This document shows positions 771 to 34,382 of a DNA stretch of 64,000 nucleotides, one piece after another (positions within the stretch are counted from its first letter, which is position 1; each line of letters opens with the position of its first letter). Below the pieces are notes generated by a model. The model saw only the letters and a program-made list of their open reading frames with translations. It ran no database searches and was not told the DNA's origin. Source of the stretch: Bacteroidota bacterium. GTDB lineage: Bacteria > Bacteroidota > Ignavibacteria > Palsa-1295. The position numbers and the translations under genes are program-made. Location of the stretch: assembly GCA_018266755.1 (NCBI GenBank), contig JAFDZW010000007.1, positions 1 to 64,000 on the forward strand, written 5' to 3'.

Positions 771-1592
771 ATGACAGCACACCAACGATCACATCAGCCG
801 CCTCACCAACTACAACACCACCCTTCGGTCTCCTCGTTACTCTCCACGGAGATCCGCACGGCCCTGAAGAACCGCCAGAACGTCGAACTGCGAGGCCGAT
901 CCGCCGCCATCCGTGCACTCCTCGACTCCCTCATCCGTTTCGAACGAGGGACGAACATCGTCGCGCCAACCCACGCCGAAGATCATACCCTGCATATCCT
1001 GCCGAACATCACCTTCCCGGTCAGCGATAAAATGACCCCGGAGAACGTCATGCGACAAGTCCTGCAGGAGTTCGGCTGGCCGACCACCCCGAACCTGTCC
1101 CATGTACAGTTCTACTTCGGAAAGCTCCTCAAGGAGCTCCATCACGACCGGATCGTCCCGGTCTTGTTGTTCGAACATACCGAGATCCTCAGAAGGAAGG
1201 CATTCAAGATCCTCTCGATCCTCTCCGAGCATACGGTAGACCGCCGGCCTTTGGGCGTTCCCTCGATCCTCTGCATCACCGAACGGGGAACCCCGGTTTC
1301 CTCGCTCCAGACGACCTCGATCGTGATCGAGGTAACGAGCCCCCTCACTAGGGACGACATCGAGCGGATCATCGAGTCCGCCGCTGCGGGATCATACGGG
1401 ATCTTCGATCCGCCGGTCATCCATGCACTCGAGCAACTCCCATCCTCGGCCCAGATCGTCACCACCGTGAAGGAGCTCCACCGCTTCGGCAGACGACTCG
1501 GACTCGAACGGATCACGAGTGAGGTCTACGATCAATGGAAGCAGGAACGAACCGTCAGCCACAGGAAGCGCTATGCCACGACGAACGATTGA
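771..1592 (+). CDS. TniB/TnsC/MuB-like transposition AAA protein lacking Walker A
   Basis: The 273-aa protein directly precedes and overlaps a DDE transposase, the usual partner of an AAA+ target-selection ATPase. It has a Walker-B-like strand (VPVLLFEHTE, residues 129-138) and a sensor-1-like segment after GVPSILCITERGTP (about 163-175), similar to the 'GVP...GTP' stretch of TniB proteins. No GxxGxGK[ST] P-loop exists; the place where it would be expected reads LRGRSAAIRALL (40-51). It may be a non-hydrolysing helper or a decayed gene. The frame is intact and the overlap with the transposase is tight, which argues for a maintained protein. The family call is by pattern and context. Confidence 0.6.
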   Translation: MTAHQRSHQPPHQLQHHPSVSSLLSTEIRTALKNRQNVELRGRSAAIRALLDSLIRFERGTNIVAPTHAEDHTLHILPNITFPVSDKMTPENVMRQVLQEFGWPTTPNLSHVQFYFGKLLKELHHDRIVPVLLFEHTEILRRKAFKILSILSEHTVDRRPLGVPSILCITERGTPVSSLQTTSIVIEVTSPLTRDDIERIIESAAAGSYGIFDPPVIHALEQLPSSAQIVTTVKELHRFGRRLGLERITSEVYDQWKQERTVSHRKRYATTND

Positions 1593-3132
1593 TCCCATCC
1601 AGATCGAGCGTATCCGTAGCGCCTATCTGGGAGCGCAGACCGTCCCCGAACGCAAACGGGTCATCGAACGAGCCTGTCGGTCGACCGGATACACCTACGG
1701 AGCCCTCATGCGGGTGTTGAACCTACACCTGCGGCCTCGCTCGCTCAGTGGGAAAGAACAAACGAGGATCGACTATTTCAATACGCTCGGGAAGCTCGTC
1801 TGGGACTATCAGATCGAACATGCCTCCAATACACGGATGGCATCCACCTCGGTAGCGATACGAGTGCTCAAGGAGGGGAAACAGCTCCCCGAGGATGTCA
1901 CCTACCACCAGATCTCGGCCTCGATCCGACGTCAGCGGCTCAAGAACAAGGCGCAGAGCTATTTTACCCGATTCGAACGAACGGAACCCCTGGCCATGAT
2001 CCAGATGGATTTTTCACGAAGTGTGTATCTGGAGCATTTCATCAACGACGGGGTATCGTATCTCAGGACGGCAACGGCAAAAGGAGCCAATGCGAGATCG
2101 GAGCGGGTCTGGATCGCGGTATCCGTCGATGACGCGTCGAGAGTCACCTATGCCCGGTATTACCTCGTCAAGGGGGAAAGTGCCGCATTAGCACGGCATT
2201 TCCTCTTACAGACCTGTATGCAGAAAACTCGGGTGGATACCGCTACGGGAGAGATCGAATCCCTCCCTCTACTGCAGGGGCAACCGGGGACACTCTACAC
2301 CGACCGGGGGTCTGCGTTTCGCAATGCCTCGTTCCGCTCGGGGATACGCAAACTCGGGATTCGTCATGTGCTCGGTTCGACGATCCGCGATACCGAGGGG
2401 AACAAGCTATCGGGGTCGAATAAACAGGCGCGTGGGAAAGTAGAGAGAATGATCCGCTATATCAAGGAGGACTTCGAGACGGAGTTGTTCTTATCCTACA
2501 AGCGAGGGACGATCTTTACACTGAAGCAGATCAACCGGTTACTCGCACAATGGCTCATGAAGGTCAATACGTCCCGTCATCCGGAGCATGCAAGCGAGAA
2601 GCGGTGGGAGATGTTTACACCAGCATTGGAACAGGCCGTGTATCCCCCGAAGGAGGCGGAGTTGCTTTTCAGTAGCTCGGTCTGGCGGAAGGTGAACCGG
2701 CGGCAGGTACGGATCACAGACGGGGTATACTGTAAAGTCCCGGTCGAGATCAACCTTGGGACGACGATGGAGATCGTTACGATCGCGGGAAGTCACTATA
2801 CGATCATCGACGGGAAGCGGGTACTGCTGGAGCCGGTGCCGCTGAGGAAGAGGCTGCATCCTCGGGCGGAGTCACCGAAGGAGTTCGAGGGTGACTATCT
2901 CGAGGGGATGGCACTGCGGCTGCGGCTCAACCGGGAGATCGAGGAGCGCACGAGGCAACAGCAGAATCTGGGGACCATGATCGAATCTCTGCCGGATGAG
3001 GTGGGTGAGTTCTTGGGAGATAGAAGATCCGTCAGCGATATTCAGCGGGTAACGACAACATTCTTACTTGCGGCAGAGGCGGTATCGGAAATTGCCCCAC
3101 ATTATGATGAAGAACATGTAAGTGTGAGATAA
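1573..3132 (+). CDS. DDE transposase, Mu/TniA/TnsB/IstA superfamily
   Basis: This 519-aa protein has an N-terminal helical DNA-binding part, an rve-type RNase-H catalytic core and a beta-rich Mu C-terminal-like domain. Probable catalytic residues are D146 (IQMDFS), D244 (LYTDRGSAF) and E291 (GKVERMIRYIKE). The start ATG at 1573 lies inside the end of the preceding gene (20-bp overlap) with AGGAAG just upstream, implying translational coupling; an in-frame extension to 1519 is less likely. It catalyses DNA strand transfer at element ends. The last third of the gene has a decayed second copy at 11622-11894, so related elements have been active here. Confidence 0.85.
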   Translation: MPRRTIDPIQIERIRSAYLGAQTVPERKRVIERACRSTGYTYGALMRVLNLHLRPRSLSGKEQTRIDYFNTLGKLVWDYQIEHASNTRMASTSVAIRVLKEGKQLPEDVTYHQISASIRRQRLKNKAQSYFTRFERTEPLAMIQMDFSRSVYLEHFINDGVSYLRTATAKGANARSERVWIAVSVDDASRVTYARYYLVKGESAALARHFLLQTCMQKTRVDTATGEIESLPLLQGQPGTLYTDRGSAFRNASFRSGIRKLGIRHVLGSTIRDTEGNKLSGSNKQARGKVERMIRYIKEDFETELFLSYKRGTIFTLKQINRLLAQWLMKVNTSRHPEHASEKRWEMFTPALEQAVYPPKEAELLFSSSVWRKVNRRQVRITDGVYCKVPVEINLGTTMEIVTIAGSHYTIIDGKRVLLEPVPLRKRLHPRAESPKEFEGDYLEGMALRLRLNREIEERTRQQQNLGTMIESLPDEVGEFLGDRRSVSDIQRVTTTFLLAAEAVSEIAPHYDEEHVSVR

Positions 3133-5132: not shown

Positions 5133-5209
5133 CCGGTGTACACAATGGCACAGCCAGCATCGCTCGTTAGTATGTGCCGGGTATATCGTCTCAACTATCA
5201 CTATCGGTC

Positions 5210-8200
5210 ATGAAAACTCGTATTGTATTTCTGCTCATTGCTTTACCACTCCTATTTTCAAATGTGGTTGCACAAAGTCAGCTACAGACAAACAACTTCC
5301 CAATTGGAGGGTTTGTCTTCGGTCTCGATCTTCAGCCAAATAGCTACATGACTCCGGCTGAGACGCAAGAACGCGACGTATTGCGCACAAGCAAACTGGT
5401 CAACAAATACTTGCTTGCGGGCTTTAATACGAATTACTTTATTGACGGTTCCGAATGGGGTAGTAGTACGCATATTGATCTTGCACATCAGATGCAATTT
5501 CGACGCCCCTTCACGAACACCTCACAGTATAACAATACGTTGCATTATTATGAAGGTCTAAAGGATAGTTGGTTCCAAACCTACTTGGGAGGAAAAGGTA
5601 TTAACCCCTGCGTAGAACAACGATATTTCGTATCAACCTATCTCACGCTTGGAGCTGAGTTCGATCCATATAATCAGATAAAAACACCAAGCGAGTATGA
5701 TTTTGAAACATTTGAACGACTGCTTACAAAGGCCGGCAATGGAGATGAAGCTCAAACATCTTATAAGTGGTATGAAACAGTCGTAGATAACAATGGCACC
5801 CCCCAACGGAAGTTGGTAGATCATCGAATGGGGATGCGTCAACTTAATGGTGAATGGTGGATACGTCGATCCGATGTTCAATCTGGAACAGATGCAATCA
5901 CATTTAAAGAGTGGCCAACATACATTGGTGATCCTGTTCCCGATCAGCCGTTGGGTTATTATTGGCCTCGTCATGTAAGCGGACCTGATCAAAAATTGAG
6001 TAAAAAGAATCCGACAAATAAAGATGAAGCAGGCTATCCTTTCCAGATCCAGCCAACACAAGCTCAGATTAATCAGCAGTTGTCCCATGAAAGTGCGGGC
6101 CTTCCTGATGAGTGGGAATTCATAACTGACGTTAATGGCCACAAAGTTATTGCAGACCATCAATTTTCAAACGACTCACTCAGGATGTATTTTATTTACC
6201 GTCTTGATGAAAATGAGTATTTTGATGATGACGACAGGACTGAAGCACCTCTCAAGGATAATTTGTATGGGAATATTCCACTCTATACAATAAAAGTGGA
6301 GTTGACGTATATTAAAAAACTAAACACATTTCCTGTGTCGTATCAAACATTAAGTCAACAGCCGTCATGGAATGTTTCGCGAACTTTTGATTTGACGTGG
6401 GACGATTATCGATATTTCCATCAGGATAATAATTCTCCGAGCAATACACATCTGACATCCTTTGCAGGTCGTCAATATGCAATGTTTCCATGTCCTTTTC
6501 AAACACCGGAACATGAACATCCACAACCATACATGGAGATTCCGCTCACACACACTGACGGTGACGATTTATATGTAGCTAATAGCATACAAGTCCACTT
6601 GATTTCCAAGGGACATGTCGGTATCTATCCGCGTGGGTTTATTTTGCGATCAAAAATTGCAGATGAGATCGTTACAGGTTACTTAGATAATATATTGAGT
6701 AAATTAGTTCAAAACACGGTTGCCAACACTTCAGACCCTGATACACATCTTCCTCCACCGTCTCTGGCTGCGCTAACCACTGCTGGTGAAAGTATTTGGC
6801 CTTCGTACAGAGCATTAGCTTACATAGACAACATGTTTAATAACCAGCCAACAGTGGATGGGAAGAAATTTGGACGGCATTTATTATCATTTCAATCATC
6901 TCCTGTTGGGGCAAACTATCATTTTCTCAGAAGTATATTCTACGATCAGAACGGCGCTTCCTATCCTGCCCCTGTTATTGTGCAAGAGATATTCGACATG
7001 TACCAAAAAGGTCTTGTAGATAAAGTTGGCAATGATATTCGACCATTATTCCCCAGTGACGGCTTATCGGCACAAATGCGGCATTTCCAAGGAACAAGCC
7101 CATCTCTCAGCTTTCTCGATCTTGGGTTCGGTGTTGCAGGCTGGAGCAATTGGCCGCACTTGACCGACTGGCGAAGCGACATAGGCTTATTGACTTCCAC
7201 TACCGATGCGAATGCGTTACCAGCCTTTAAACAGTCAGAATACTCAAAGTATGTAGATACAATGCATGCCCATCTTATGACATCCGATAGGGACCATGCA
7301 GAGGCCTCGCATGCGGCATATACTGTTAAACAAAACCTTGCAGCCGATGCAACATCCGGGACATGGTATTCTCTTCTGTCTACAATTGGTGGTGTACGAC
7401 TACCTCGTCCAGATGCATTCACCTTATCAACTGTTTACAGTGCACTAACGAGTTTTACTGGGACTCCTAGTCAGAATGCTCAAAACTATATTGACAATAT
7501 TTGGAATCCATTATTTGAATATCAGCAGCAATTTCGGCTATTCCACGACCCAAATCATCCCCCTCAATATCCCGGTCCATTTCGCTTTGACCAATTATAT
7601 CCGGCATCAGTATTTGATCTCTATAATCCTAAATGGGGAGGTAGTGACAAATTTGTATTTTCTGCGCGTTCACCAATATCGACAGAGATTCGAGCAGAAG
7701 GGTGGAATGCGTTATGTTGGGGTGCAAAGGGTATTTTCTTTAATACATTGGGAAGCGACGGCATCGAGCAAATGGGAATCTGCGATAATCACATGAATAC
7801 GGATTTTGACGGATGGGAATATCAGGATGACCACGGACAGCTCAAGAAGGCTCGCTTTGTCGATACCTATCCAACAGCTCAGGTGTGTAATGCGAATACA
7901 GATCCCAATACAAACGACATCTTAAATACATATCTGTTGCCGAGACAACCAACAAACGTGTCAAAAAGGATCAGTTATCCCTATCGTCCGATCCATTTCG
8001 CCGATGACCCCAGTGCCGACCACATATGCGATAACCCCACAACTGTATTAGCAACAAGCGATGGGATGCTATTGTCGCCTATACAATGGATCCCATCCAG
8101 TGTCCCTGAAGATAAGATTACGGACTATATGAATAAGCAGTTTACTGTAGGTTCTACAGACGTTCAACTCATGCTTAAATCCAAAGGAACCTCGAACGGA

Positions 8201-11200
8201 GATGAACAGATGTTTCATATTGTAGCAGAAGATGGTAGTTTGATTCGGACGGATTCACGTAACCCTAATACCAATGACACCTGGGGGGGGCACTGGAAAC
8301 CCTTGTATGAATTTACATCAGAAACCCACGCCTGTCAAGGTATTCCGCTTTGTTCAAGCAGTACAGTGCCTGGGCATAAGGAATGGCTTGCTACATTCTT
8401 TGGGAATGTACTAAAAGATCCGTCTAACCCTAACGATATCGAATATCATGACCCAGATGGGTGGTTTGACTTGCTTACATGGAAGCCTCACGATGTTACC
8501 GATGCAGGCACTCAAACACTAACAATACAACCAATTCGCCATACAAATGATGACGCGCCTTCAATCGATGCTTGGATTCCAACGTATTATGGCTATAAAC
8601 AAAAATGGGCAGGTGCAACTCAACTTACAAAGGATATTAATGCAATCTCCACGTACCTCACTCGTTTTCAATGGCAGCGTGCGTTTACGGCTTCCGATTT
8701 GGGGAGTTTTGATGAACTAGACAGTAAACTAAATCAAGAACCTAAGTTTCCGATCAAGTCGATAAGGACCAACCCCGTACTTCCTTACGCATATAATATC
8801 GAATTTACATCACCGCAACATACATCGTTTGAGTACCACTTTGTTAAGGATGACCAAGCTCCGTTTGATGATATTAAGAAGACCCACCTTCAACTGGCGT
8901 TGTTTAAAGATCCTGTAATCCGCGATCCATTTAGCTTCTCATTTATTTTAGCAAACCAACGTACCTGGCCTATTCAATTCAAGCCAAACACAGACCCGGA
9001 CCACGATGGTATTTGGCGCGATTTCATCTTAACGCAAGATAACACTGATTATCCCAATACGGAGACGTTACTTGGCGCTGTGGATGCACGCATCTGTAGC
9101 TTCACGATTAATCCAGATGCATATACAAATGTATCTCCCGCATTCCGACATGGGGATAAAGGTATATCGATGAGACTTTTAAACTTAGGGACAAAAAAAC
9201 ATACAGACTTTTTCTCAAATATTGATGCATCTACCCTGACAACGGTTCCTGTCGAATTCGCCCCCGGCCAGGGTAATCTATTCCGTCTGTATCCAGTCTT
9301 CAGTTTTATGACTACAGGTCGCGGTACAAGCGCGATTGCCTATAATAATGCCGGACATCTGAGCTCAAGTGAAAATAACACGCAACAACCCTCCATTACG
9401 TATGCGACAGAAGATCGAAATGGAATAGCAGTATCATACCCACAAAAAGATACTACAGATCCGAATATTCATAAGATGCTCCAATTGGCAGATTCACAAA
9501 TTGTAGTGATCGACAGTTCTGGTCTATCTCATACACCAGCAGTGTGCGTATACCCAGGCGGACCTGGGGTTGGACTCGTCTACACCCTTGATAATGCGGG
9601 ACCATCGAAGGATTCAACGTATGTCATATTCCGCTATGGGCCGGGTGCTTCCCCGTTGAATTATCCGGTTTCCGATACGCTCGATCGGTACAAAACATTT
9701 TCTGAATTGAAAGCAGCTCCGGCTATTGTGCCATCAAAGAGCCAAGGGCTATCCTTTTGGGTTTCATGGCGCCACCCAACTATGGGAGCGAAAATTGCAA
9801 TTGTAAATAGCCTTGGACAAATTGTTGCACAGAATTCATTTTGGGCTGCAAATAAATTTGAGACTAAGTTTATATCACTGGCTTCCCACATGCAACAGAT
9901 TGACTCTGGTGTGGTTGGAATTCCAGTCGATACATGCTATATTGCCTTTGAGGAAGGACAAGGTATTTCGTCAGATATTTACTTCGTTAAAGCATTTCAC
10001 AGTGATAATGTAAATCCCACGCAAATAGGAACCGTTGGGATGAAAAACATCTCAAATGGGATGCCCTACTGCGAACATCATTTCCCGTGTATCAGCGTAA
10101 CTCAAAAACGACATGTATATGTTGTTTGGGAGTCAACTCCGCCAGCAGTAATGCATGACAACCTCGATAGTGGTTTATTTAGGAGGCACTACACTGTATT
10201 GCGTGATCGGCCGGTTCAAGGGAAATGGTCACAGTTTACCTCATTCTTTGGTTTCGAGAGTAATTTCTACCCAATTCCACTGCTCGATACACTAAGTGTA
10301 TCCCCAGTGATAACTGCGGCGGATCCTATCCCTGGTCCACCGCAAGCAGTGGAAGGAAGTAATTCTATCTGGCAGGACGAAGTACGAATGGCATGGAACA
10401 GCCCTATTGATAATACTATACGATTAGCACATTTTGGGAATTATGGTTTGAATACCATCCCCAAGTGGCAAATCGTGCCGATGCCCGAAACATCGCTTGA
10501 ACCAGCAATGGCACCTCGTACAAGATTTAATGGCGTACTTCAGCCGTTGCTATTTAGAGACGATCTTCTTATGGACGATAGTAACTCTTATGCGGTTCAT
10601 TTGACGCAATACAGTTTTCCGTTAAATAACATAGTTGATACTGTCAAACGCTTTCAGACCTTGATCGTCAAACCTATATTCTGTGCTTGCCCGAGTGTCT
10701 TTGTCGCTAAGACGACAAGTGTAGACATTCGACGGTACTTGGGATTCTCAGCCTTAACATTGGATTGGCATGGCTGGGACTGGGAAGATACGATCCGCGA
10801 TGGGAATGGCGGTCTGAGTGCGGGCGGATATCGATCGGATGGCACTGTATTTATGCCATTTGATACGCTTAATTTCAGTGCGCTCTTTCGGGTCGGAAGC
10901 TTTCACCAAGGTGATACGATGTATGCAATGCCATGTGTTCAATCGGTTGCGGATACACTTGGGTTCAGACTTGTGGTTCGAAAGAAGTCTACAAATGATC
11001 TCGTTTGGACATTGGACTCGGCTGAATACGCGATGGGGCAATTCCATTCATCCGTACCGTACAGTAAATCCGAGAAGCGCACTCAGGTTGTTCCCCCAGT
11101 ATTTACAAACGATTCTGTATATCTCTCTCTGGAGAGTTATACAATTGGACATGGCTTTAATCAAGCAGCCCCGAATGACAATCTGGATATATCACACCAG

Positions 11201-11566
11201 TTGGTATATGATACAACCATCTTTGATATTCCGGCGCCCCTTGATTCGACACAGACCAGTTATAAAAAGGAGGTTCCAAGTACCAAACCATCGCTGGTAA
11301 GTATTGTGCCAATGAGTATAGATATTTACCCTAACCCGTATCGAGACTTCACTACAGTAAATATCTTTGCACCTCTGAATACATCGATGAAAGTAGCCAT
11401 CTTCGATGTACTAGGTAGGGTAATACAGACTCTCTTCGACGGGGCCAACGACAAACCTATGCAGTCATTTCAAGTTGGGAACAGTGGCCTTGACGACGGG
11501 CTGTACTTTATAAGAGCCCAAGCCGGATCGCAAGTCGTTACAAAGAAACTCGAACTTCGCCGATGA
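5210..11566 (+). CDS. Giant T9SS-secreted protein (2118 aa)
   Basis: The chosen start, MKTRIVFLLIALPLLFSNVVA, gives a textbook signal peptide; an earlier in-frame start at 5174 would bury it. The C-terminus carries a type IX sorting domain of about 85 residues (YPNP, then VAIFDVLGRVIQTL, DGLYFIRA and a final KKLELRR), so the protein should cross the outer membrane and be anchored or released. The middle is rich in Asn, Thr, Asp, Tyr and Trp with no family I recognise; a glycan-related role is possible but not shown. The gene is markedly AT-richer than the window's core genes and lies between two copies of a transposase 3' end. It is divergent from the TPR-LuxR regulator. Confidence 0.85.
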   Translation: MKTRIVFLLIALPLLFSNVVAQSQLQTNNFPIGGFVFGLDLQPNSYMTPAETQERDVLRTSKLVNKYLLAGFNTNYFIDGSEWGSSTHIDLAHQMQFRRPFTNTSQYNNTLHYYEGLKDSWFQTYLGGKGINPCVEQRYFVSTYLTLGAEFDPYNQIKTPSEYDFETFERLLTKAGNGDEAQTSYKWYETVVDNNGTPQRKLVDHRMGMRQLNGEWWIRRSDVQSGTDAITFKEWPTYIGDPVPDQPLGYYWPRHVSGPDQKLSKKNPTNKDEAGYPFQIQPTQAQINQQLSHESAGLPDEWEFITDVNGHKVIADHQFSNDSLRMYFIYRLDENEYFDDDDRTEAPLKDNLYGNIPLYTIKVELTYIKKLNTFPVSYQTLSQQPSWNVSRTFDLTWDDYRYFHQDNNSPSNTHLTSFAGRQYAMFPCPFQTPEHEHPQPYMEIPLTHTDGDDLYVANSIQVHLISKGHVGIYPRGFILRSKIADEIVTGYLDNILSKLVQNTVANTSDPDTHLPPPSLAALTTAGESIWPSYRALAYIDNMFNNQPTVDGKKFGRHLLSFQSSPVGANYHFLRSIFYDQNGASYPAPVIVQEIFDMYQKGLVDKVGNDIRPLFPSDGLSAQMRHFQGTSPSLSFLDLGFGVAGWSNWPHLTDWRSDIGLLTSTTDANALPAFKQSEYSKYVDTMHAHLMTSDRDHAEASHAAYTVKQNLAADATSGTWYSLLSTIGGVRLPRPDAFTLSTVYSALTSFTGTPSQNAQNYIDNIWNPLFEYQQQFRLFHDPNHPPQYPGPFRFDQLYPASVFDLYNPKWGGSDKFVFSARSPISTEIRAEGWNALCWGAKGIFFNTLGSDGIEQMGICDNHMNTDFDGWEYQDDHGQLKKARFVDTYPTAQVCNANTDPNTNDILNTYLLPRQPTNVSKRISYPYRPIHFADDPSADHICDNPTTVLATSDGMLLSPIQWIPSSVPEDKITDYMNKQFTVGSTDVQLMLKSKGTSNGDEQMFHIVAEDGSLIRTDSRNPNTNDTWGGHWKPLYEFTSETHACQGIPLCSSSTVPGHKEWLATFFGNVLKDPSNPNDIEYHDPDGWFDLLTWKPHDVTDAGTQTLTIQPIRHTNDDAPSIDAWIPTYYGYKQKWAGATQLTKDINAISTYLTRFQWQRAFTASDLGSFDELDSKLNQEPKFPIKSIRTNPVLPYAYNIEFTSPQHTSFEYHFVKDDQAPFDDIKKTHLQLALFKDPVIRDPFSFSFILANQRTWPIQFKPNTDPDHDGIWRDFILTQDNTDYPNTETLLGAVDARICSFTINPDAYTNVSPAFRHGDKGISMRLLNLGTKKHTDFFSNIDASTLTTVPVEFAPGQGNLFRLYPVFSFMTTGRGTSAIAYNNAGHLSSSENNTQQPSITYATEDRNGIAVSYPQKDTTDPNIHKMLQLADSQIVVIDSSGLSHTPAVCVYPGGPGVGLVYTLDNAGPSKDSTYVIFRYGPGASPLNYPVSDTLDRYKTFSELKAAPAIVPSKSQGLSFWVSWRHPTMGAKIAIVNSLGQIVAQNSFWAANKFETKFISLASHMQQIDSGVVGIPVDTCYIAFEEGQGISSDIYFVKAFHSDNVNPTQIGTVGMKNISNGMPYCEHHFPCISVTQKRHVYVVWESTPPAVMHDNLDSGLFRRHYTVLRDRPVQGKWSQFTSFFGFESNFYPIPLLDTLSVSPVITAADPIPGPPQAVEGSNSIWQDEVRMAWNSPIDNTIRLAHFGNYGLNTIPKWQIVPMPETSLEPAMAPRTRFNGVLQPLLFRDDLLMDDSNSYAVHLTQYSFPLNNIVDTVKRFQTLIVKPIFCACPSVFVAKTTSVDIRRYLGFSALTLDWHGWDWEDTIRDGNGGLSAGGYRSDGTVFMPFDTLNFSALFRVGSFHQGDTMYAMPCVQSVADTLGFRLVVRKKSTNDLVWTLDSAEYAMGQFHSSVPYSKSEKRTQVVPPVFTNDSVYLSLESYTIGHGFNQAAPNDNLDISHQLVYDTTIFDIPAPLDSTQTSYKKEVPSTKPSLVSIVPMSIDIYPNPYRDFTTVNIFAPLNTSMKVAIFDVLGRVIQTLFDGANDKPMQSFQVGNSGLDDGLYFIRAQAGSQVVTKKLELRR

Positions 11567-26091: not shown

Positions 26092-26733
26092 ATGGACGCT
26101 ACGGAACAACAGTTTGTTCTACCTTTTGCGATGGACATCGAACCGAAGTACCACGTCGAGCGGCGCCGCGTGCGCTATGCACGCATTAGTGTCGATCACG
26201 AACTAAATGTGAAGATCGTGATCCCGATGCGCTACACACGCGCGCATCTCGACGTCCTGCTTGAAGAGAAGAAGCGGTGGATCGCAAAACAGGTCGCGCA
26301 TTTCGTCCTTGCTCGCGAACGGGCGGTCAAGCTCGGTCAGGATGAATTGCTCTATTTCGGCGAGCCGTTTCGGGTTGACTTCGACGCCACGAACGCGAAG
26401 CTTGCAGAAGCATGGTATCGTGACCGGGCGAAGGAGCATGTGTTCACGCGCGTCGCAGAACTGGCGGGGCAGTTCGGGTATGCCTATAATCGTCTCTTTA
26501 TCCGAGGATCAAAGACCCGCTGGGGCAGTTGTTCGCGGCAAAAGAATCTCTCGTTCAACTGGCGACTGATGAAAACGCCGCCGCACGTTGTCGATTATCT
26601 CATCCTCCACGAGCTCGCGCACACGGTGCACTTCAACCACTCCAAACGCTTCTGGGCACGCGTCGAAGCGACGTGTCCGGACTACCGCCTTGCCGAACGC
26701 TGGCTCAAAGAGAACGGATCAGCATTGCACTAA
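26092..26733 (+). CDS. YgjP-like metallopeptidase-domain protein (DUF45/M48-type)
   Basis: This 213-aa protein carries the zinc motif HELAH near residue 172, in LILHELAHTVHFNHSKRFW, and the family-specific TRWGSCSRQKNLSFNWRLM just before it. These features define the YgjP/DUF45 group. It has no signal peptide, so it is cytoplasmic. Known relatives are putative zinc metalloproteins without a settled substrate. Its last 4 bp overlap the convergent cusA N-terminal gene. Confidence 0.9.
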   Translation: MDATEQQFVLPFAMDIEPKYHVERRRVRYARISVDHELNVKIVIPMRYTRAHLDVLLEEKKRWIAKQVAHFVLARERAVKLGQDELLYFGEPFRVDFDATNAKLAEAWYRDRAKEHVFTRVAELAGQFGYAYNRLFIRGSKTRWGSCSRQKNLSFNWRLMKTPPHVVDYLILHELAHTVHFNHSKRFWARVEATCPDYRLAERWLKENGSALH

Positions 26734-27995
26734 CTCGATCGCGTGAGCGCGAGGTGCCGGTAGGCGTTCTCCACCATCACGATTGCATCGTCCACGATCA
26801 CTCCGATCGCAAGCGCAATGCCCGTCAGCGACATGATGTTCGACGAGAATCCGAACGCATTGAGCAGAATGAAGCTCGCCGCTACCGAGATCGGGATCTG
26901 AATGAGAATGATCATCGCGCTACGTGCATGCAACAGGAAGATCAGCACCATGATCGACACGCTGAGAAACACTTCGAACAAGGTCCCCTTCACCGACGCG
27001 ATCGCTTCTTCGATGAGTGTTGAGCGGTCATACGCCGCATGGAACGTCACTCCTTTCGGTAGTCCCTTTGTGACATCCGCGATCTTGGTCTTCACCGCTT
27101 TGATCACGGCATCGGCGTTCTCACCGTAGCGCATCACGACGATGCCACCGACTCGTTCACCGTTGCCGTTCTCGTCGAACACGCCATAGCGAATGTCACC
27201 GCCCATCTGCACGTCGGCCACGTCCTTCACGCGGATCGGAGTGCTGCCCCGTGTCGCGATCGTGATGTTCTCGATATCCGGCACGCCGTGGACGTATCCG
27301 AGGCCGCGGATGATGTACGAGCGTTCGCTCATCTCGAACTTGCGTCCGCCGACGTCATTGTTGTTCGCGCGCACCGCACGCTGGACATCCATCATCGTCA
27401 GGTCGTACGAATTGAGCTTGATCGGGTCGATCGTGATCTGATACTGTTTCTGGAATCCACCGAATGATGCGACCTCGCTCACTCCCGCGACCGTCTGCAG
27501 CGCCGGCTTCACGAACCAGTCTTGCAGCGCACGCAGATCGCCGAGGTCGTACCCCGGCGCCTCGAGCGTGTACCAATAGATGTGACCGACACCGGTGCCA
27601 TCCGGTCCCAGCGTCGGGACGATGCCTTCGGGCAGGAGCCGTTGCGCGAAGTTCAGCCGCTCGGTCACACGCGTACGCGCCCAGTAGATGTCGGCATCGT
27701 CATCGAACGTGACATACACGAAGCTCATGCCGAACATCGACGAGCCGCGGATGTTGCGCACCTTCGGGATGCCTTGCAGATTCGACACGAGCGGATACGT
27801 CACCTGGTCTTCGATCACCTGCGGGCTGCGACCCATCCATTCGGTGAAGACGATCACCTGATTCTCCGAGAGATCCGGAATGGCATCCACCGGATTATTG
27901 CCGACAGCATACACACCCCACGCAAACATCCCTACTGCAACAAGCAACACAAGGAGGCGATTGCGAAGCGCGAACGATATGAGTGCTCCTACCAT
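26730..27995 (-). CDS. cusA-N: CusA/CzcA RND copper pump, N-terminal half as a separate gene
   Basis: The 421-aa protein covers RND TM1 (about 12-31), the first periplasmic porter half (NPVDAIPDLSENQVIVFTEW is typical heavy-metal RND), and TM2-TM4. It keeps the proton-relay acidic pair in TM4 (VDDAIVMVEN, D402/D403) and stops 18 residues later in the TM4-TM5 loop. A strong ribosome site, GGAAGGAG, lies 7 nt before the ATG. It is the last gene of the operon, whereas the remaining 637 residues of the pump are encoded about 3.6 kb upstream (31561-33474). Together the halves total 1058 residues, close to a full CusA. Both halves should be needed for pumping. Confidence 0.93.
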   Translation of the reverse strand: MVGALISFALRNRLLVLLVAVGMFAWGVYAVGNNPVDAIPDLSENQVIVFTEWMGRSPQVIEDQVTYPLVSNLQGIPKVRNIRGSSMFGMSFVYVTFDDDADIYWARTRVTERLNFAQRLLPEGIVPTLGPDGTGVGHIYWYTLEAPGYDLGDLRALQDWFVKPALQTVAGVSEVASFGGFQKQYQITIDPIKLNSYDLTMMDVQRAVRANNNDVGGRKFEMSERSYIIRGLGYVHGVPDIENITIATRGSTPIRVKDVADVQMGGDIRYGVFDENGNGERVGGIVVMRYGENADAVIKAVKTKIADVTKGLPKGVTFHAAYDRSTLIEEAIASVKGTLFEVFLSVSIMVLIFLLHARSAMIILIQIPISVAASFILLNAFGFSSNIMSLTGIALAIGVIVDDAIVMVENAYRHLALTRSS

Positions 27996-28010
27996 AGTCT
28001 GCTCCTTCCG

Positions 28011-29189
28011 TTACATCTGCATGCCCGCCATCGGCGAAGCACCATTCTTGAATGTGTACTCGCTTGTAAGCAAGTACGCCCCGGAAATGACGACCTTATC
28101 GCCGTCACTGAGTCCTGACGTGATCTCGACTCCGTTCGGATTTTCGATGCCGAGCGTGACCATCTTGATCTCGAACACGCCGTCCGAGCGCAACACCCAT
28201 ACGCTTGCACCGTGGCTGTCCTGTTCAACGGCTCCGTGCGGCAGCGTGAGCGCGATATGCGGCTCTTTGCGAAGCGAAATGTTCGCAAGCATGCCGGGGC
28301 GAAGATCAGTGGGCGGATGATCGAGTCGGAAGCGAACGCTCACGTAGTGCTCATTCTGCTGCAAATGCGGCTGAATGAAGATCACCGATCCGCGCTGTTC
28401 GGGTAGTTGGCTACCGGGGATGGTGAACGTGGCTTCATCGCCCTCGTGCAGACCCGTCAAGAACGCGACCGGCACCTGCGCTTCGACCCACAGCGAGCCA
28501 AGGTCGGCAAGCTCGAAGAGCGTGCTGCCCTCGCTGACGTAATCGCCTTCGCTGACAGTTGCACCGGTCACATACCCGCTTGACGTTGCAGTGAACGGCA
28601 CTTCGTTCATGATCTTCCCGCTGCGTGCGATCTCAGCGATCATCTCATCGCTCATCCCATAGAGTCGAAGCCGCTGCTTTGCCGCGGCGGCTACGTCGCC
28701 CGATGCAGAGCGTCTGCTCGCGGCGAGATACTCGGCCTGCGCTGCATTGAGTTCTTCACTATAAATAGAATAGAGAACTGCACCACGGGCAACCGGCTCC
28801 GCACCGGAGCGCACAGCAAGTCGAGTGATGCGACCGGCAACGCGTGACGAGATGGCCGACGCGCGTTCCTGGTCGATCGTCACCGTTCCTTCGAGCGTCA
28901 GCTCCGTCGCCGTCGGCTGCAAACCGATCGTCTCGAGCTTGATGTTCGCCAGTTGCTGCTGTTGCGTGCTCAGACGGATCTCGCCGGCCTTCAGCTGATG
29001 CTTCTTGACCTTGATCATCTCCATGTGGCAGATCGGGCAACGGCCGGCATGGTATTCGGTGACCTGCGGATCCATCGAACACGTGTAGTATTCATCCGGC
29101 GCAAGACCGTCCTCTTTCTGTTTCTCACTCTTGCACGAAACGAACGCCACCAGCAAGACTAGTGCGAGGAGTGTGGTGATGGTTCTCAT
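28011..29189 (-). CDS. cusB: CusB-type periplasmic adaptor lipoprotein with heavy-metal-binding domain
   Basis: The start MRTITTLLALVLLVAFVSC is a lipoprotein signal with its lipobox Cys at 19. Residues about 34-61 form a heavy-metal-binding domain (YYTCSMDPQV, CPICHMEM). RND adaptor elements follow: barrel-sandwich parts (ISSRVAGRITRL, TATSSGYVTG), a helical hairpin (about 145-190) and membrane-proximal strands. The end GASPMAGMQM is Met-rich, suiting Cu(I)/Ag(I). Its start overlaps the stop of the other adaptor by ATGA. It should link the pump to the outer-membrane factor and hand over metal. Confidence 0.92.
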   Translation of the reverse strand: MRTITTLLALVLLVAFVSCKSEKQKEDGLAPDEYYTCSMDPQVTEYHAGRCPICHMEMIKVKKHQLKAGEIRLSTQQQQLANIKLETIGLQPTATELTLEGTVTIDQERASAISSRVAGRITRLAVRSGAEPVARGAVLYSIYSEELNAAQAEYLAASRRSASGDVAAAAKQRLRLYGMSDEMIAEIARSGKIMNEVPFTATSSGYVTGATVSEGDYVSEGSTLFELADLGSLWVEAQVPVAFLTGLHEGDEATFTIPGSQLPEQRGSVIFIQPHLQQNEHYVSVRFRLDHPPTDLRPGMLANISLRKEPHIALTLPHGAVEQDSHGASVWVLRSDGVFEIKMVTLGIENPNGVEITSGLSDGDKVVISGAYLLTSEYTFKNGASPMAGMQM

Positions 29190-30370
29190 TGTGCGGCCTC
29201 CGTTCTAATGAAGCTGTCGCTATCGACAAAGTAATGCGCTTCGAGCGCAACCTCGTCGCTATCGTCGACTCCGCTTGATATTTGCACCAGCGAATCGGTT
29301 GCGATGCCTGTCCTGATCTCTACGGCAGCGAAGCGGCCGTCGCGTTTGACGAAGACGACATCCCGTTTGCCAAGACTGACGACCGCTGACTTCGGCAGCC
29401 ACGCACCATCTACTGCGCTCGGTTCGATCATTGCATCCACCAGTGCGCCGATCTTGAGCGATGACTCGTGCGATACACCTTCGAGATATACCCGAGCACG
29501 CAAGGACGATGACGATGCATCGAGGATGGGCTCGATGTAGTCGATCTTCGCAGTGATGGGATGCTCCCGGTCCGTCTCCGGTCTGATCGTCACTGCATCG
29601 CCATGATGCACCAGCGCTGCTTCGCTTCGCGGAATGTTCAGGGCGATCCAGACACGTGAGGCATCGTACACCGACACCAGCGCCTGCCCTGCACGCACGT
29701 ACATCCCTTCTTTCAGCGAGAGTTCGCTCGAAGCGAGGTTCGTTGCGTAGTCGGACGGCGCGGCGCTCGTGCTACTGGTGCCGCCAATCATCGAGGCCAT
29801 GCCATCGCCTCCCGACGCATTCATCTTGGTTGAGGTTGTGCGCGAAACGACATCGTGGATATGTCCGCCGTAGGGCGAGTACACGGGCAGCGGGTTGATC
29901 GGCTGTCTGGATGAGACGATGCGAGCGATCTGCGCATCGGTGAGTCCGAGATTCGCCAGCTTCTGCTTCGCAGCTTCGGCAAGCTCCGAGGCCTGTGCAT
30001 TACCACGGGTCAGGGCGATGAGCCGCTCCTGCTCGGCGAGGATCGCTGGGCTATAGATCGCAAGGATCTCTGCGCCCGTACCGATCGGTTGGAAGTTGTA
30101 ATGCAAGGCCAGCCGTTCGATGCGGCCGTCGAAGCGCGAGCTGATCGTGTTCACCGAACGCGGATCGACGGTCACCACACCAGTTGCACGCACGAGCGGC
30201 GTAACACTGGAGTGGGTGAGCTTCACGGTCGCACCGGCCGCTTTGACGATGCGGTTCGGCGATGCCGTTACATCCGTCAGCGATGCCTCTGCCGACGGTG
30301 GCGGCGCCGCCTCGCGTTTGGAGCATGCCGCGAGCGATAGCGCCAGCAGCAGCATTGGCGTCTTAGTCAT
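29186..30370 (-). CDS. Second RND adaptor lipoprotein (membrane fusion protein)
   Basis: The start at 30370 (MTKTPMLLLALSLAACSKRE) is favoured because it gives a clean lipobox and an 8-nt overlap with the preceding gene, as at the previous junction in this operon. The body (394 aa) shows adaptor hallmarks: ISSRFDGRIERLALHY, a helical hairpin region (AILAEQERLIALTRGN), SPYGGHIHDVV and KEGMYVRAGQAL. It lacks the N-terminal Cys/His metal domain of the other adaptor but has a Met/Gly/Ser-rich insert (about 185-210). Two unlike adaptors in one operon suggest a mixed adaptor ring or division of labour. Confidence 0.88.
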   Translation of the reverse strand: MTKTPMLLLALSLAACSKREAAPPPSAEASLTDVTASPNRIVKAAGATVKLTHSSVTPLVRATGVVTVDPRSVNTISSRFDGRIERLALHYNFQPIGTGAEILAIYSPAILAEQERLIALTRGNAQASELAEAAKQKLANLGLTDAQIARIVSSRQPINPLPVYSPYGGHIHDVVSRTTSTKMNASGGDGMASMIGGTSSTSAAPSDYATNLASSELSLKEGMYVRAGQALVSVYDASRVWIALNIPRSEAALVHHGDAVTIRPETDREHPITAKIDYIEPILDASSSSLRARVYLEGVSHESSLKIGALVDAMIEPSAVDGAWLPKSAVVSLGKRDVVFVKRDGRFAAVEIRTGIATDSLVQISSGVDDSDEVALEAHYFVDSDSFIRTEAAQ

Positions 30371-31568
30371 TGGAAAGAGCGTCTTCATACGAGATCTGAG
30401 CGTTGATAAGTGATTTAAGGAGATCGAGACGATTCATCTCGGCCATCCTCAGCATCTGCCATGCGTCGATGACACGAAAGAGATCGCCGGCATTCTGTTG
30501 GTATGCACGCAACGATGCATCGAACGATCGCTGATAGGCGGGCAGAACGACTGTCGTGATGTTCTCGAGTTGCGTACGACTGCCGTCAACTTGCGCACGG
30601 AGTATTTCGATCTTGGCCGCACGTTCGCGGATCGTTGCATCGCGCTTGAGCTGCATGCTTTCGATCTCGCGATCGACACCGGCGCTCATCGCATCGGCTT
30701 CGGTGCGAGACCACGGTGCGATCGGCAGTGAGACCATGCCCATGACCGAGAACTGGTTTGGCATCATGGTATTGAGCGCTTGCATGTGGTTGACCGATAC
30801 GCCGAACTCCGGATACAGCGCCGATCGCTCCACGTCGCGGCGCGAGCGCATCATCGTGATCTCGGCATCGATGCTCCGTACTTCCGGGATACTATCGGTG
30901 AGCATCCGATCGGAAGCGGTGCCAGAAACCGGCAGTGTGGTGTCGATCTGGAATGTAGCTGTCGCGGCGCCGAGGAAGTTTCGCAGCTCTGCATTGTTCA
31001 TGCCGATGTCTGCTGTCGTCATCGTTCGCATCGAAGAGAGCTCCGCGCGGGCAGCCTGCGCTTTATAGATGTTCTCGAGCGACTCCTTCCCGGTCGGGTA
31101 GCGATCGGTTGCGAGCGCGATCACGAATGCAAGCAGCGAATCGGTCTCGTCGATCGCTCGAAGCTTGCGCTCGAGCACTGAGCGGCCGTAATAGGCTCGC
31201 TTCGCCATCGTGTGCATGTCGCGAAGAGCGACAGACTGCGATGCGCGGTCGAGCGCCGCTTCGCTGAGCATCATCCGCTCTTTTGCATTCACCTTCGCGG
31301 GGTTTGGGATCATCTGCTCGACGCCGACCATGAACATCCCGTCGCCGATCGCATTGTATGGCGTCTGCCACAACCCTGCAGTGATCTTCGGCGGCATCCA
31401 GCTCGATGCACTGCGAGCGTACTCTGAGCGTGCATCCGCCATCACCTCATACATCTTGATCATCGGATACGACCGATCGATCGCATGGAGCACCGAATCG
31501 AGCGTGATGACCTGTGCCTCGGTCTGCACCGCCACAAGCAACAGCACAAAGAGTAGTAGCTTACTCAT
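30363..31568 (-). CDS. cusC: TolC-family outer-membrane factor of the copper pump
   Basis: The start at 31568 gives the signal peptide MSKLLLFVLLLVAVQTEA and an 8-nt overlap (ATGAGTAA) with the CusA C-half gene. The 401-aa protein is mainly long helices and contains two outer-membrane-efflux repeats, with Met-rich stretches (GMFMVGVEQMIPNP, QALNTMMPNQFSVMGMV). Proteins of this kind form the trimeric outer-membrane channel. It is somewhat shorter than proteobacterial CusC, as is usual for Bacteroidota heavy-metal efflux factors. Confidence 0.87.
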   Translation of the reverse strand: MSKLLLFVLLLVAVQTEAQVITLDSVLHAIDRSYPMIKMYEVMADARSEYARSASSWMPPKITAGLWQTPYNAIGDGMFMVGVEQMIPNPAKVNAKERMMLSEAALDRASQSVALRDMHTMAKRAYYGRSVLERKLRAIDETDSLLAFVIALATDRYPTGKESLENIYKAQAARAELSSMRTMTTADIGMNNAELRNFLGAATATFQIDTTLPVSGTASDRMLTDSIPEVRSIDAEITMMRSRRDVERSALYPEFGVSVNHMQALNTMMPNQFSVMGMVSLPIAPWSRTEADAMSAGVDREIESMQLKRDATIRERAAKIEILRAQVDGSRTQLENITTVVLPAYQRSFDASLRAYQQNAGDLFRVIDAWQMLRMAEMNRLDLLKSLINAQISYEDALSND

Positions 31569-33474
31569 GGTGTCCTCCCGGAATGGTGATCTTGCCGTGT
31601 TTACGCAATTCGCGTTCCTTGGCCATTTCATAGACGACTGGCGTGACGAGCAGCACATACACGGTCGAAGTGATGAGCCCGCCAAGCATCGGCAAGGTGA
31701 TCGGTCGCATGACGTCGCTGCCCGTGCCGCTAGCCCAGAGGATCGGCAAGAGTCCGAAGAGGGAGACGGAGACCGTCATTAGTTTGGGTCGCAGGCGTTG
31801 GATGGCTCCGTCGGTCACGTACTTGCGCAAGTCCGCCGACGAGATCGTCTCGCTCGAGTTGCCTTTGTCGTGCACGAGCTTCTCCATGTACTCATTCAGA
31901 TAGATCGTCATGAGCATCGCCGTTTCGATCGCAACACCGAAGAGCGCGATAAACCCGACCGCCACAGCGACCGACACGTTGACATGGTAGAGTGCAAGGA
32001 TATAGACACCACCCGAAAGCGCGAACGGCACGGTGATCATCGTCAGCATTGCTTCTTTGAGCGACTTGTACGTGAAGTACAACACGAAGAAGATGATGAC
32101 GATCACGATCGGCATGATGATCTGCAGCGTCTTGCGCGAGCGGATCTGGTTCTCCCACTGTCCGCTCCACTCGAAGCTGTAGCCCGTGGGCAGCTTCTTG
32201 AAGGCGGAGTCGAGTGTGCGCTGTGCATCGCGGACCGTCGAGCCGAGGTCGCGGTCGCGCACGTTGAAGAGCACCGTCCCGCGAAGCATCGCTCCTTCGG
32301 AAGTGATCATCGGCGGACCGTCGGCAAGACGAACATCGGCGACGGCAGCGAGCGGCACAGTGCCTGCGGGTGAGCGAAGTGGTAACTGACGAATGGCATC
32401 GATGCTGTTGCGATAGTCCTGTGCGAATCGTGCGTTCACCGCGAAGCGTTCGCGGCCCTCGACCGTGGTCGTGAGGTTCATCCCGCCAAGGGCGGTCTCG
32501 ATGAACATGTTCACATCGTCCACACTCAGACCGAACTTGCCGATCTCATCGCGTTTGATCGCGATGTCGAGATAGCGACCACCGGTGATGGGTTCGACAT
32601 ACAAGTCCTTCACACCGTCGCGCCCTTCGAGCGCTGCACGCACACGCTCGGCGAGCGCACCGATCGTATCGAGGTCGCGACCGTAGATCTTCAGACCGAC
32701 ATCCGTTCGGATACCTGTCGAAAGCATGTTGATGCGATTGATGATCGGTTGCGTGAAGCCGTTGACTACGCCCGGGATCTGCAACTTCGAGTTGAGTTCT
32801 TCGACGAGGCGTTCTTTCGTCATGCCGGGTCTCCACTCGGCGCGAGGCTTCAGCAGGACGATCGTCTCGATCATGCTGATCGGCGAGTTATCCGTCGCAG
32901 TGTTCGCGCGCCCTGCCTTCCCCAGCACGCTCTCGACCTCGGGCACGCCCGCGATGATCTTGTCCTGTATCTGCAGAATGCGCTTCGCCTCGGTGTTCGA
33001 GACGTCGGGCATGGTCACAGGCATGAACAGGATCGACCCCTCGTCGAGCGGCGGCATGAACTCGGAGCCGAGTTGTGTGTAGAGGAACGCACCGCCGGCG
33101 AGGAGCACGATGTTGATCGCGATCACCGTCTTGCGCCACTCCAGACACCAGTGCAGGATCGGTGTGTAGAGCCGCTCGAGCAGCCGCGTGATCGGGTTCG
33201 ATTCTTCGTGTTTGAGCTTGCCGCGAAGGAAGAACGAGATCAGCACGGGCGTGAGCGTGATCGCGAGAAATGCATCAATCACGAGGATGAACGTCTTCGT
33301 CCAAGCGAGCGGGTGAAAGAGCTTCCCTTCGGTGCCCGTCAAAAGAAAGACGGGCAGGAAGGAAGCGATTACCACTACTGTGGAGAAGAATACACCCGGG
33401 CCGACCTGACGGCTCGATCGTTCGATCGTCTCGAGATCGGCTGCAGAGCTTCGGAAGCGGTCGAAGAACTTCAT
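31561..33474 (-). CDS. cusA-C: CusA/CzcA RND copper pump, C-terminal half as a separate gene
   Basis: The 637-aa protein starts in the TM4-TM5 cytoplasmic loop (MKFFDRFRSSAADLETIERS) and contains TM5-TM7, the second porter half and TM8-TM12. The metal-site Met equivalents are visible in SPISMIETIV and NRINMLSTGIR, as is the TM10 acidic relay residue (FGVAIETAMLM). The sequence opening matches the point where the N-half gene (26730-27995) ends, so nothing essential is missing. The start lies 8 nt behind the CusF-like gene's stop, and the end overlaps the outer-membrane-factor gene by 8 nt: a settled operon position, not a broken fragment. Confidence 0.93.
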   Translation of the reverse strand: MKFFDRFRSSAADLETIERSSRQVGPGVFFSTVVVIASFLPVFLLTGTEGKLFHPLAWTKTFILVIDAFLAITLTPVLISFFLRGKLKHEESNPITRLLERLYTPILHWCLEWRKTVIAINIVLLAGGAFLYTQLGSEFMPPLDEGSILFMPVTMPDVSNTEAKRILQIQDKIIAGVPEVESVLGKAGRANTATDNSPISMIETIVLLKPRAEWRPGMTKERLVEELNSKLQIPGVVNGFTQPIINRINMLSTGIRTDVGLKIYGRDLDTIGALAERVRAALEGRDGVKDLYVEPITGGRYLDIAIKRDEIGKFGLSVDDVNMFIETALGGMNLTTTVEGRERFAVNARFAQDYRNSIDAIRQLPLRSPAGTVPLAAVADVRLADGPPMITSEGAMLRGTVLFNVRDRDLGSTVRDAQRTLDSAFKKLPTGYSFEWSGQWENQIRSRKTLQIIMPIVIVIIFFVLYFTYKSLKEAMLTMITVPFALSGGVYILALYHVNVSVAVAVGFIALFGVAIETAMLMTIYLNEYMEKLVHDKGNSSETISSADLRKYVTDGAIQRLRPKLMTVSVSLFGLLPILWASGTGSDVMRPITLPMLGGLITSTVYVLLVTPVVYEMAKERELRKHGKITIPGGHHE

Positions 33475-33482
33475 TGTTCGTG

Positions 33483-33884
33483 CTATTTCTTGATAAGGTC
33501 CATCCCGCACTTCTTGCACGTGCCGGGTTTGTCGGAGTGCTGGTCGGGATGCATCGGGCAGACATACATCGCTGCACTCGTGCTCGTGACCTTCACACCG
33601 GTGATGACTGGAAAGCCCTTGACGACTTTCATCGTAAAGAGCCCCTTTGTGCCTTCACTCACTGTATCGAAGAGCTTTGCATCGTCGACGGCGAAGGTCA
33701 TGGTCATGGCCTTCATGTATCCTTTGATCTCCTTGTGGTCGAGCGTGATCTTCTTGTCGTCACGATAGATCTTCTTGACGGTCGCTTTGACCTTGTACAC
33801 TTTACCGTCCTTCACGGGTGCGGCGGCAACTGACGATAGGGCGAAATATGACAAGAGTATGGCGATAGATAAAATGTACTTCAT
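33483..33884 (-). CDS. CusF-like periplasmic copper-binding protein with metal-binding tail
   Basis: The start MKYILSIAILLSYFALSSVA gives a signal peptide; the longer in-frame start at 33941 would bury it. Residues about 28-100 form a CusF_Ec-type beta barrel with Met ligands in GYMKAMTMTF (M57, M60, M62). The C-terminus adds a second site, a heavy-metal-binding motif with C109, H112, C123 and C126. It should carry periplasmic Cu(I)/Ag(I) to the efflux complex. The fusion of the CusF fold with a Cys/His tail is common in Bacteroidota. It precedes the CusA C-half by 8 nt. Confidence 0.9.
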   Translation of the reverse strand: MKYILSIAILLSYFALSSVAAAPVKDGKVYKVKATVKKIYRDDKKITLDHKEIKGYMKAMTMTFAVDDAKLFDTVSEGTKGLFTMKVVKGFPVITGVKVTSTSAAMYVCPMHPDQHSDKPGTCKKCGMDLIKK

Positions 33885-33986
33885 GATCGAATTGAAATGA
33901 ATAAGAAAAATGATAGAATACAACGGAACATCCGCACGCATGGCAGCTTAGCGGCCACGAGTCGGATTAGTAGGAGATCTAAGAGA

Positions 33987-34382
33987 TCAGATGACGAAGG
34001 TCGAGAGCATCGCACGCGCAGTGGATGCATCGGGAGGCAATGGAACGGTTCGTTGTCCGGGTATGGGCTCGACAGTGCCGAAGAGATCGAGGTCGTTCGA
34101 AACGACGATCATCGGTTGCGGTAACACGGCGGCTATTACCTGCACCGACTGTGAGTCCTGCGAACGTAGGCTGTCGGTGTGGACCACTTTATGCTCGACG
34201 ATCGGCTTGCAGCAATCCTTCGTCTTGGTGGATGCCTTCTCCGACTTGTTGCACATCGAGCACTGCTGGGTCTGCTTCGTCGACATTTTCGGGCATGCGA
34301 ACGAGACTGCCGTGTATCCGATCGAGGAGATCATGATACACGTTACGAGCACTGCCGATATAACGCGACGAAGACGCTTCAT
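33987..34382 (-). CDS. Cys-rich secreted protein heading the copper operon
   Basis: The 131-aa protein has a signal peptide (MKRLRRVISAVLVTCIMISS) and a cluster of Cys with Lys between residues about 30 and 60 (ACPKM, QQCSMCNKSEK, KDCCKPIVEHKVVH). A Val/Pro-rich tail follows. The Cys-Met-His content and its place as first gene of the copper operon suggest a periplasmic metal buffer or sensor. Small proteins of this build accompany heavy-metal efflux loci in Bacteroidota, but the family has no established function that I know. The overlapping plus-strand frame is a shadow. Confidence 0.7.
   Translation of the reverse strand: MKRLRRVISAVLVTCIMISSIGYTAVSFACPKMSTKQTQQCSMCNKSEKASTKTKDCCKPIVEHKVVHTDSLRSQDSQSVQVIAAVLPQPMIVVSNDLDLFGTVEPIPGQRTVPLPPDASTARAMLSTFVI

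Follow-up and report, generated by a model that had tools for sequence, protein, structure and literature searches.

The window analysed here, a stretch of 64,000 nucleotides from the draft genome of a Bacteroidota bacterium, very probably carries a working copper/silver efflux operon in which two genes together encode the RND pump, the halves assembling into one CusA-like protomer; this reading is drawn from sequence comparison. Heavy-metal RND pumps have been studied as single polypeptides with 12 transmembrane (TM) helices. In the window, one tight operon on the reverse strand (26730-33474) consists, in the order of transcription, of genes for the C-terminal half of CusA, CusC, CusB1, CusB2 and the N-terminal half of CusA. 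A sequence-only reading of this region had proposed that one CusA is divided between two genes in permuted order, the C-half being upstream and the N-half last, with three genes between them. The open reading frames, their coverage of the family models and the gene order in related genomes bear this out, and the three intervening genes are those for CusC, CusB1 and CusB2.

The C-half gene (31561..33474, reverse strand) encodes 637 aa with TM5-TM12 and carries the methionine triad and the equivalents of E939 and K984. The ATG of the gene for the cusC-like outer membrane channel (OEP in the family search; 30363..31568, reverse strand) overlaps its stop codon, the listed TTG start at 31685 being too long. 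The family search identified the next two genes, cusB1 (29186..30388, reverse strand; 400 aa) and cusB2 (28011..29189, reverse strand; 392 aa, with a heavy-metal-binding domain at the N-terminus), as periplasmic adaptors of the HlyD_D23/CusB type located between the halves. The N-half gene (26730..27995, reverse strand) encodes 421 aa with TM1-TM4 and carries the D405 equivalent. An outer membrane channel and a periplasmic adaptor are expected in the operon of a CusA-type pump, and both are present. All five genes lie on the same strand, neighbours either overlapping or being separated by a 15-nt gap; both half genes are open over the coordinates given, and the sequence GGAAGGAG (28002..28009, reverse strand), situated 6 nt 5' of the N-half ATG, was read as the likely ribosome-binding site of that gene. 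The sizes of the two proteins, and the presence in each gene of its own start and stop with tight spacing or a strong ribosome site, are as originally described.

A gene for a protein with a CusF-like domain and a heavy-metal-binding domain (33483..33941, reverse strand) is located 8 nt upstream of the C-half gene, and is preceded by a gene for a small protein with a Cys-rich stretch (33987..34382, reverse strand), which has no family match and is possibly a member of the operon. At the other end, the stop codon of the N-half gene overlaps that of a convergent gene for a YgjP-like metallopeptidase (26092-26733, forward strand) at 26730-26733. Recent acquisition of the operon, as judged by base composition, was unsupported, its GC content (0.54-0.59) being that of the surroundings. 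Elsewhere in the window, the secreted protein encoded at 5174-11566 (2130 aa) ends in a sorting-type C-terminal tail, and the GC content around it is 0.43-0.47, lower than the 0.52-0.59 of most of the window. At 771-3132, a 273-aa gene, possibly for an ATPase-type transposition protein, is followed by a 537-aa integrase-type transposase gene, a pair that by eye resembles TniB/TniA.

The two proteins match consecutive parts of the same family models. The N-half covers positions 2-415 and the C-half positions 419-1019 of PF00873 (ACR_tran), and in TIGR00914 they cover positions 1-422 and 437-1042, respectively. Together the halves thus span the whole family model and, as had been read from the sequence, add up to a full-length CusA, the sole gap being the loop between TM4 and TM5. 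In the alignment with Escherichia coli CusA the N-half ends at about position 419 and the C-half starts at about position 436, which confirms that the cut lies in the cytoplasmic TM4-TM5 loop. The Pfam scores of the halves (374 and 437 bits) rule out a chance pair of open reading frames. CusA/CzcA proteins are single polypeptides of ~1050 aa scoring above the curated cut-off of the TIGR00914 model; here there are two separate open reading frames, scoring 469.5 and 605.1 bits, both below the cut-off of 701.45. The two halves were modelled singly with AlphaFold (mean pLDDT 76.5 for the N-half and 82.9 for the C-half); the models contain four and eight membrane helices, respectively, in agreement with the proposed division into TM1-TM4 and TM5-TM12. 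CusA was the best PDB match of both models, with query TM-scores of the top matches of 0.78 and 0.81. The N-half model superposes at an rmsd of 9.6 Å, and its domain arrangement without the partner is therefore unreliable.

Across 47 split pairs, the window included, residues D405, M391, K482, E567, M573, M623, E625, M672, E939, K984, T987 and M1009 do not vary. All of these pairs accordingly possess the proton relay (D405/E939/K984) and a metal site of the Cu(I)/Ag(I) type (M573, M623 and M672 with E625). In E. coli CusA, point mutation of D405, E939 or K984 each stops transport, and a role in coupling proton import to metal export via D405, M391, M403 and M410 has been proposed for TM4 (PMC8092243). 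In the split pump the N chain contributes TM4 with D405, and the C chain E939 and K984. Of the transmembrane and exit methionine pairs, M391-M1009 is kept; M410 is also kept, but M501 is replaced by isoleucine. The window has other residues in place of M403, M486, M501 and the M271-M755 pair, at positions where one-piece relatives vary too. Because these residues are not kept, the cytosolic methionine route of E. coli CusA may be inapplicable here. The earlier expectation that the functional residues are retained holds for D405, E939 and the methionine triad; the triad, however, lies wholly in the C-half, and the transmembrane methionine pairs are kept only in part. Where dS was measurable, dN/dS was 0.01-0.07 in both halves, and both are under strong purifying selection.

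Related genomes and the window's own genome were searched. In the latter, a draft of 11 contigs, the halves are separate loci, and the genome-wide search revealed neither a close full-length CusA, which would have spoken against the two-gene reading, nor a joined N-C copy. The other PF00873 genes of this genome are three full-length ones and one weak partial match, the best one-piece relative being ~39% identical to the N-half and 36% to the C-half. In the scan of GTDB genomes, the nearest matches, loci L067 and L145/L223, proved to have the order C, cusC, cusB1, cusB2, N, at 75-78% identity. Locus L145 belongs to the metagenome-assembled genome (MAG) SZAS-91 (G235) and L067 to a 2.1-Mb MAG whose label, Chitinophaga pinensis, is doubtful; both loci differ from the window in flanks and base composition. 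The order suggested from the window alone thus recurs in two independent metagenome genomes. A fourth permuted operon is located on a short broken contig of genome G435 (L207), which contains the end of cusC, cusB1, cusB2, an unrelated 414-aa gene (1766-3010) between cusB2 and the N-half, a metal-binding-domain gene and the N-half gene; no C gene follows the N gene on this contig, and none was found in the G435 assembly.

The split itself turned out to have a much broader distribution. CusA is encoded by separate N and C genes with the same TM4-TM5 cut in 23 of the 395 Bacteroidota genomes sampled. A CusA close to the N-half (E <= 1e-160) is present in 31 of the 395; the N frame is 425-475 aa long in 23 of these 31 (28 genes) and is part of a one-piece gene, with 56-59% identity, in the remaining eight. 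The 22 split genomes besides that of the window, which include genomes in 1-3 contigs, contain 27 N and 27 C genes. N and C almost always lie side by side, N first; C is downstream of N, on the same strand, in all of these genomes except G235. In the complete type-strain plasmids pRUNSL02 of Runella slithyformis and pHALHY01 of Haliscomenobacter hydrossis, two intact neighbouring RND permease genes are followed by TolC and two adaptors, and both halves are named 'efflux RND transporter permease subunit' in the plasmid records, without comment. The record of the Spirosoma linguale plasmid pSLIN01 has no CDS annotated at its N and C genes (L219:7882-11353). Some annotations may drop split pumps as pseudogenes. 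Several genomes contain more than one pair: G191, G296 and G303 have two or three N-C pairs each, and in L069, L085 and L097 two pairs occur at one locus, in tandem in L069 and L097, where one set of adaptor genes was seen beside them. Within the window's own class the split type is found in only three of 391 sampled genomes, the third of which (G656) has adjacent N-C genes, and other close relatives of the window's genome use a one-piece CusA. Patchy occurrence and carriage on plasmids suggest that the split CusA has been spread by horizontal transfer. The split is an old trait of a Bacteroidota CusA clade and is widespread in the phylum, and the relocation of N would be a rarer, later event. 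The sequence-only reading took RND pumps to be almost always one polypeptide or an internal duplication, with no permuted two-gene CusA known; the split, however, is not unique, and only relocation of the N-half is limited to the small group to which the window belongs.

Phylogenetic analysis supports this order of events. In a tree of the concatenated halves, all split sequences form one clade (SH-aLRT 100), which includes a single one-piece gene (L084), and the three permuted sequences form a clade of their own (100) nested within it. In separate trees the permuted clade has a support of 97 (N) and 99 (C), and the window falls into the same group on both. Pairwise N and C distances are correlated (r = 0.93; Mantel p <= 0.001), although linkage alone would also give a correlation. 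That N and C come from different lineages is ruled out by the agreement of the two trees; halves of one lineage are what had been anticipated. An apparent difference in the best relatives of N and C was caused by an insertion in the one-piece relatives at C position ~370, which broke the alignments, and disappeared when closer relatives were used.

Since the permuted clade nests within the split clade for each half separately, we infer that fission probably came first and relocation of N later. One Bacteroidota CusA clade would descend from a gene that broke at the cytoplasmic TM4-TM5 loop, with N and C left as neighbours; in the common ancestor of the group that includes the window, N would then have been shifted from its place in front of C to the last position in the operon. 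The one-piece CusA of L084 (8699-11866) is 63% and 58% identical to the N- and C-halves, respectively, and its linker can be aligned with the beginning of the C genes of relatives, so that it looks like a re-fusion. Because this gene lies inside the split clade, fission may have occurred more than once, or may have been reversed; the simplest history would have a single event each of fission, re-fusion (L084) and relocation of N. The relocation itself would most simply be explained by a tandem duplication of the operon in which one of the N genes and one of the C genes were later lost. Loci with N-C N-C in tandem do occur, and in L145 and L207 a metal-binding-domain gene still precedes N, both of which fit duplication and loss; N may alternatively have moved as a single gene. 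A junction signature, in which the N gene ends in ...CGATCGAGTTAG and the C gene holds ...CGATCGAGCC, was considered and rejected, as the split predates the permutation and the other N tails are unrelated. The 8-bp match between CGATCGAGTTAG at the N end and CGATCGAGCC in C is probably due to chance.

Could the two genes be something other than parts of one pump? The window's genome, a draft, consists of 11 contigs, and an assembly error or a mixture of strains might have produced the permuted order. Such an origin is scarcely conceivable, because L067 and L145, independent assemblies with different flanks and base composition, show the same order at 75-78% identity, N also lies after CusC, CusB1 and CusB2 in L207, and there is no joined N-C copy anywhere in the window's genome. 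Remains of a broken pump gene might be suspected as well, given that RND pumps are normally one polypeptide, that neither half reaches the TIGR00914 cut-off and that one plasmid record has no CDS over the pair. Decay of this kind is very improbable: the same split site is kept across many genera, the catalytic residues are invariant, N and C genes occur in equal numbers and have their own start signals, and the low dN/dS applies to both halves. Hardly more credible is a merely apparent split, with programmed frameshifting or stop readthrough joining N and C in the adjacent-gene members. Most members do have N and C adjacent in the right order, some with overlapping ends (ATGA overlaps among them). 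However, in 35 split loci the frame of C relative to N is 0, 1 or 2 in 6, 16 and 13 cases, respectively, and the spacing ranges from overlap to more than 600 nt (one locus), with no fixed slippery-site or readthrough geometry and with C having its own start codon. These variable frame relations argue that neither process is the link, and in the permuted operons, with three genes in between and N last, joining is impossible.

It is also unlikely, albeit less remotely so, that the halves have separate jobs, C working without N, or N acting as a regulator or exchanging partners. The methionine triad is contained wholly in C, and in genomes with two or three pairs mixing of partners is possible. 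Nevertheless, the proton relay needs D405 from N together with E939 and K984 from C (PMC8092243), and both halves are strongly conserved and equal in number. Since these relay residues are divided between the chains and are all invariant, co-assembly into one protomer is the most likely arrangement. The N-half (4 TM) and the C-half (8 TM) would be made separately and inserted with all ends cytoplasmic, and would then join as one CusA-like protomer; the trimer that docks CusB and CusC would consist of three of these pairs and would export Cu(I)/Ag(I). More generally, the split clade is likely to consist of obligate two-chain protomers, (N+C)x3, in which the relay and a methionine pair are each shared between the chains and gene order has been rearranged with function kept; the apparent one-piece form nested in the clade suggests that split and fused forms can interconvert.

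The closest characterized system is CusA of the E. coli CusCFBA pump (HME-RND, TIGR00914; PDB 3K07, 7KF5-7KF8), which is alike in full-length sequence, in D405/E939/K984, in the methionine triad and in M391-M1009; CusC, CusB and a CusF-like protein of the cus operon also have counterparts here. E. coli CusA is, however, one 1047-aa polypeptide, whereas here there are two, cut at ~419/~436 and encoded in the order C, CusC, CusB1, CusB2, N. The adjacent-gene pumps of Runella (pRUNSL02), Haliscomenobacter (pHALHY01), Hymenobacter, Chryseolinea, Niastella and Saprospiraceae have the same cut and make the same pair of proteins, with CusC and two adaptor genes usually following, but N and then C stand at the front of the operon, whereas in the window C is first and N last. 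SecD/SecF likewise form a 12-TM RND unit that consists of two polypeptides in some organisms and one in others (PMC8277102); by comparison with the literature, that cut falls between the 6-TM repeats (6+6), and the one in the window inside the first repeat (4+8). MdtB and MdtC also amount to two RND genes per pump, but each is a permease of its own and they combine in a heterotrimer (PMC8277102), instead of being two parts of one protomer. Our literature search, which covered mainly openly available papers, returned no description of a split or permuted CusA; a paper on copper in Bizionia describes CusA-like proteins and, in the passages retrieved, makes no mention of a split. The split pump is thus a new form within the CusA/HME-RND family, sharing its sequence, catalytic and operon features and departing from it in not being one polypeptide.

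A natural, stable 4+8 split means that the D405 side and the E939/K984 side of the pump can be separately expressed, labelled and mutated, and a two-chain system opens the assembly of the RND protomer to study. The group further provides an ordered history, fission and then relocation, for a membrane protein gene. Since neither half from the window reaches the TIGR00914 cut-off, many copper pumps of Bacteroidota may be under-called.
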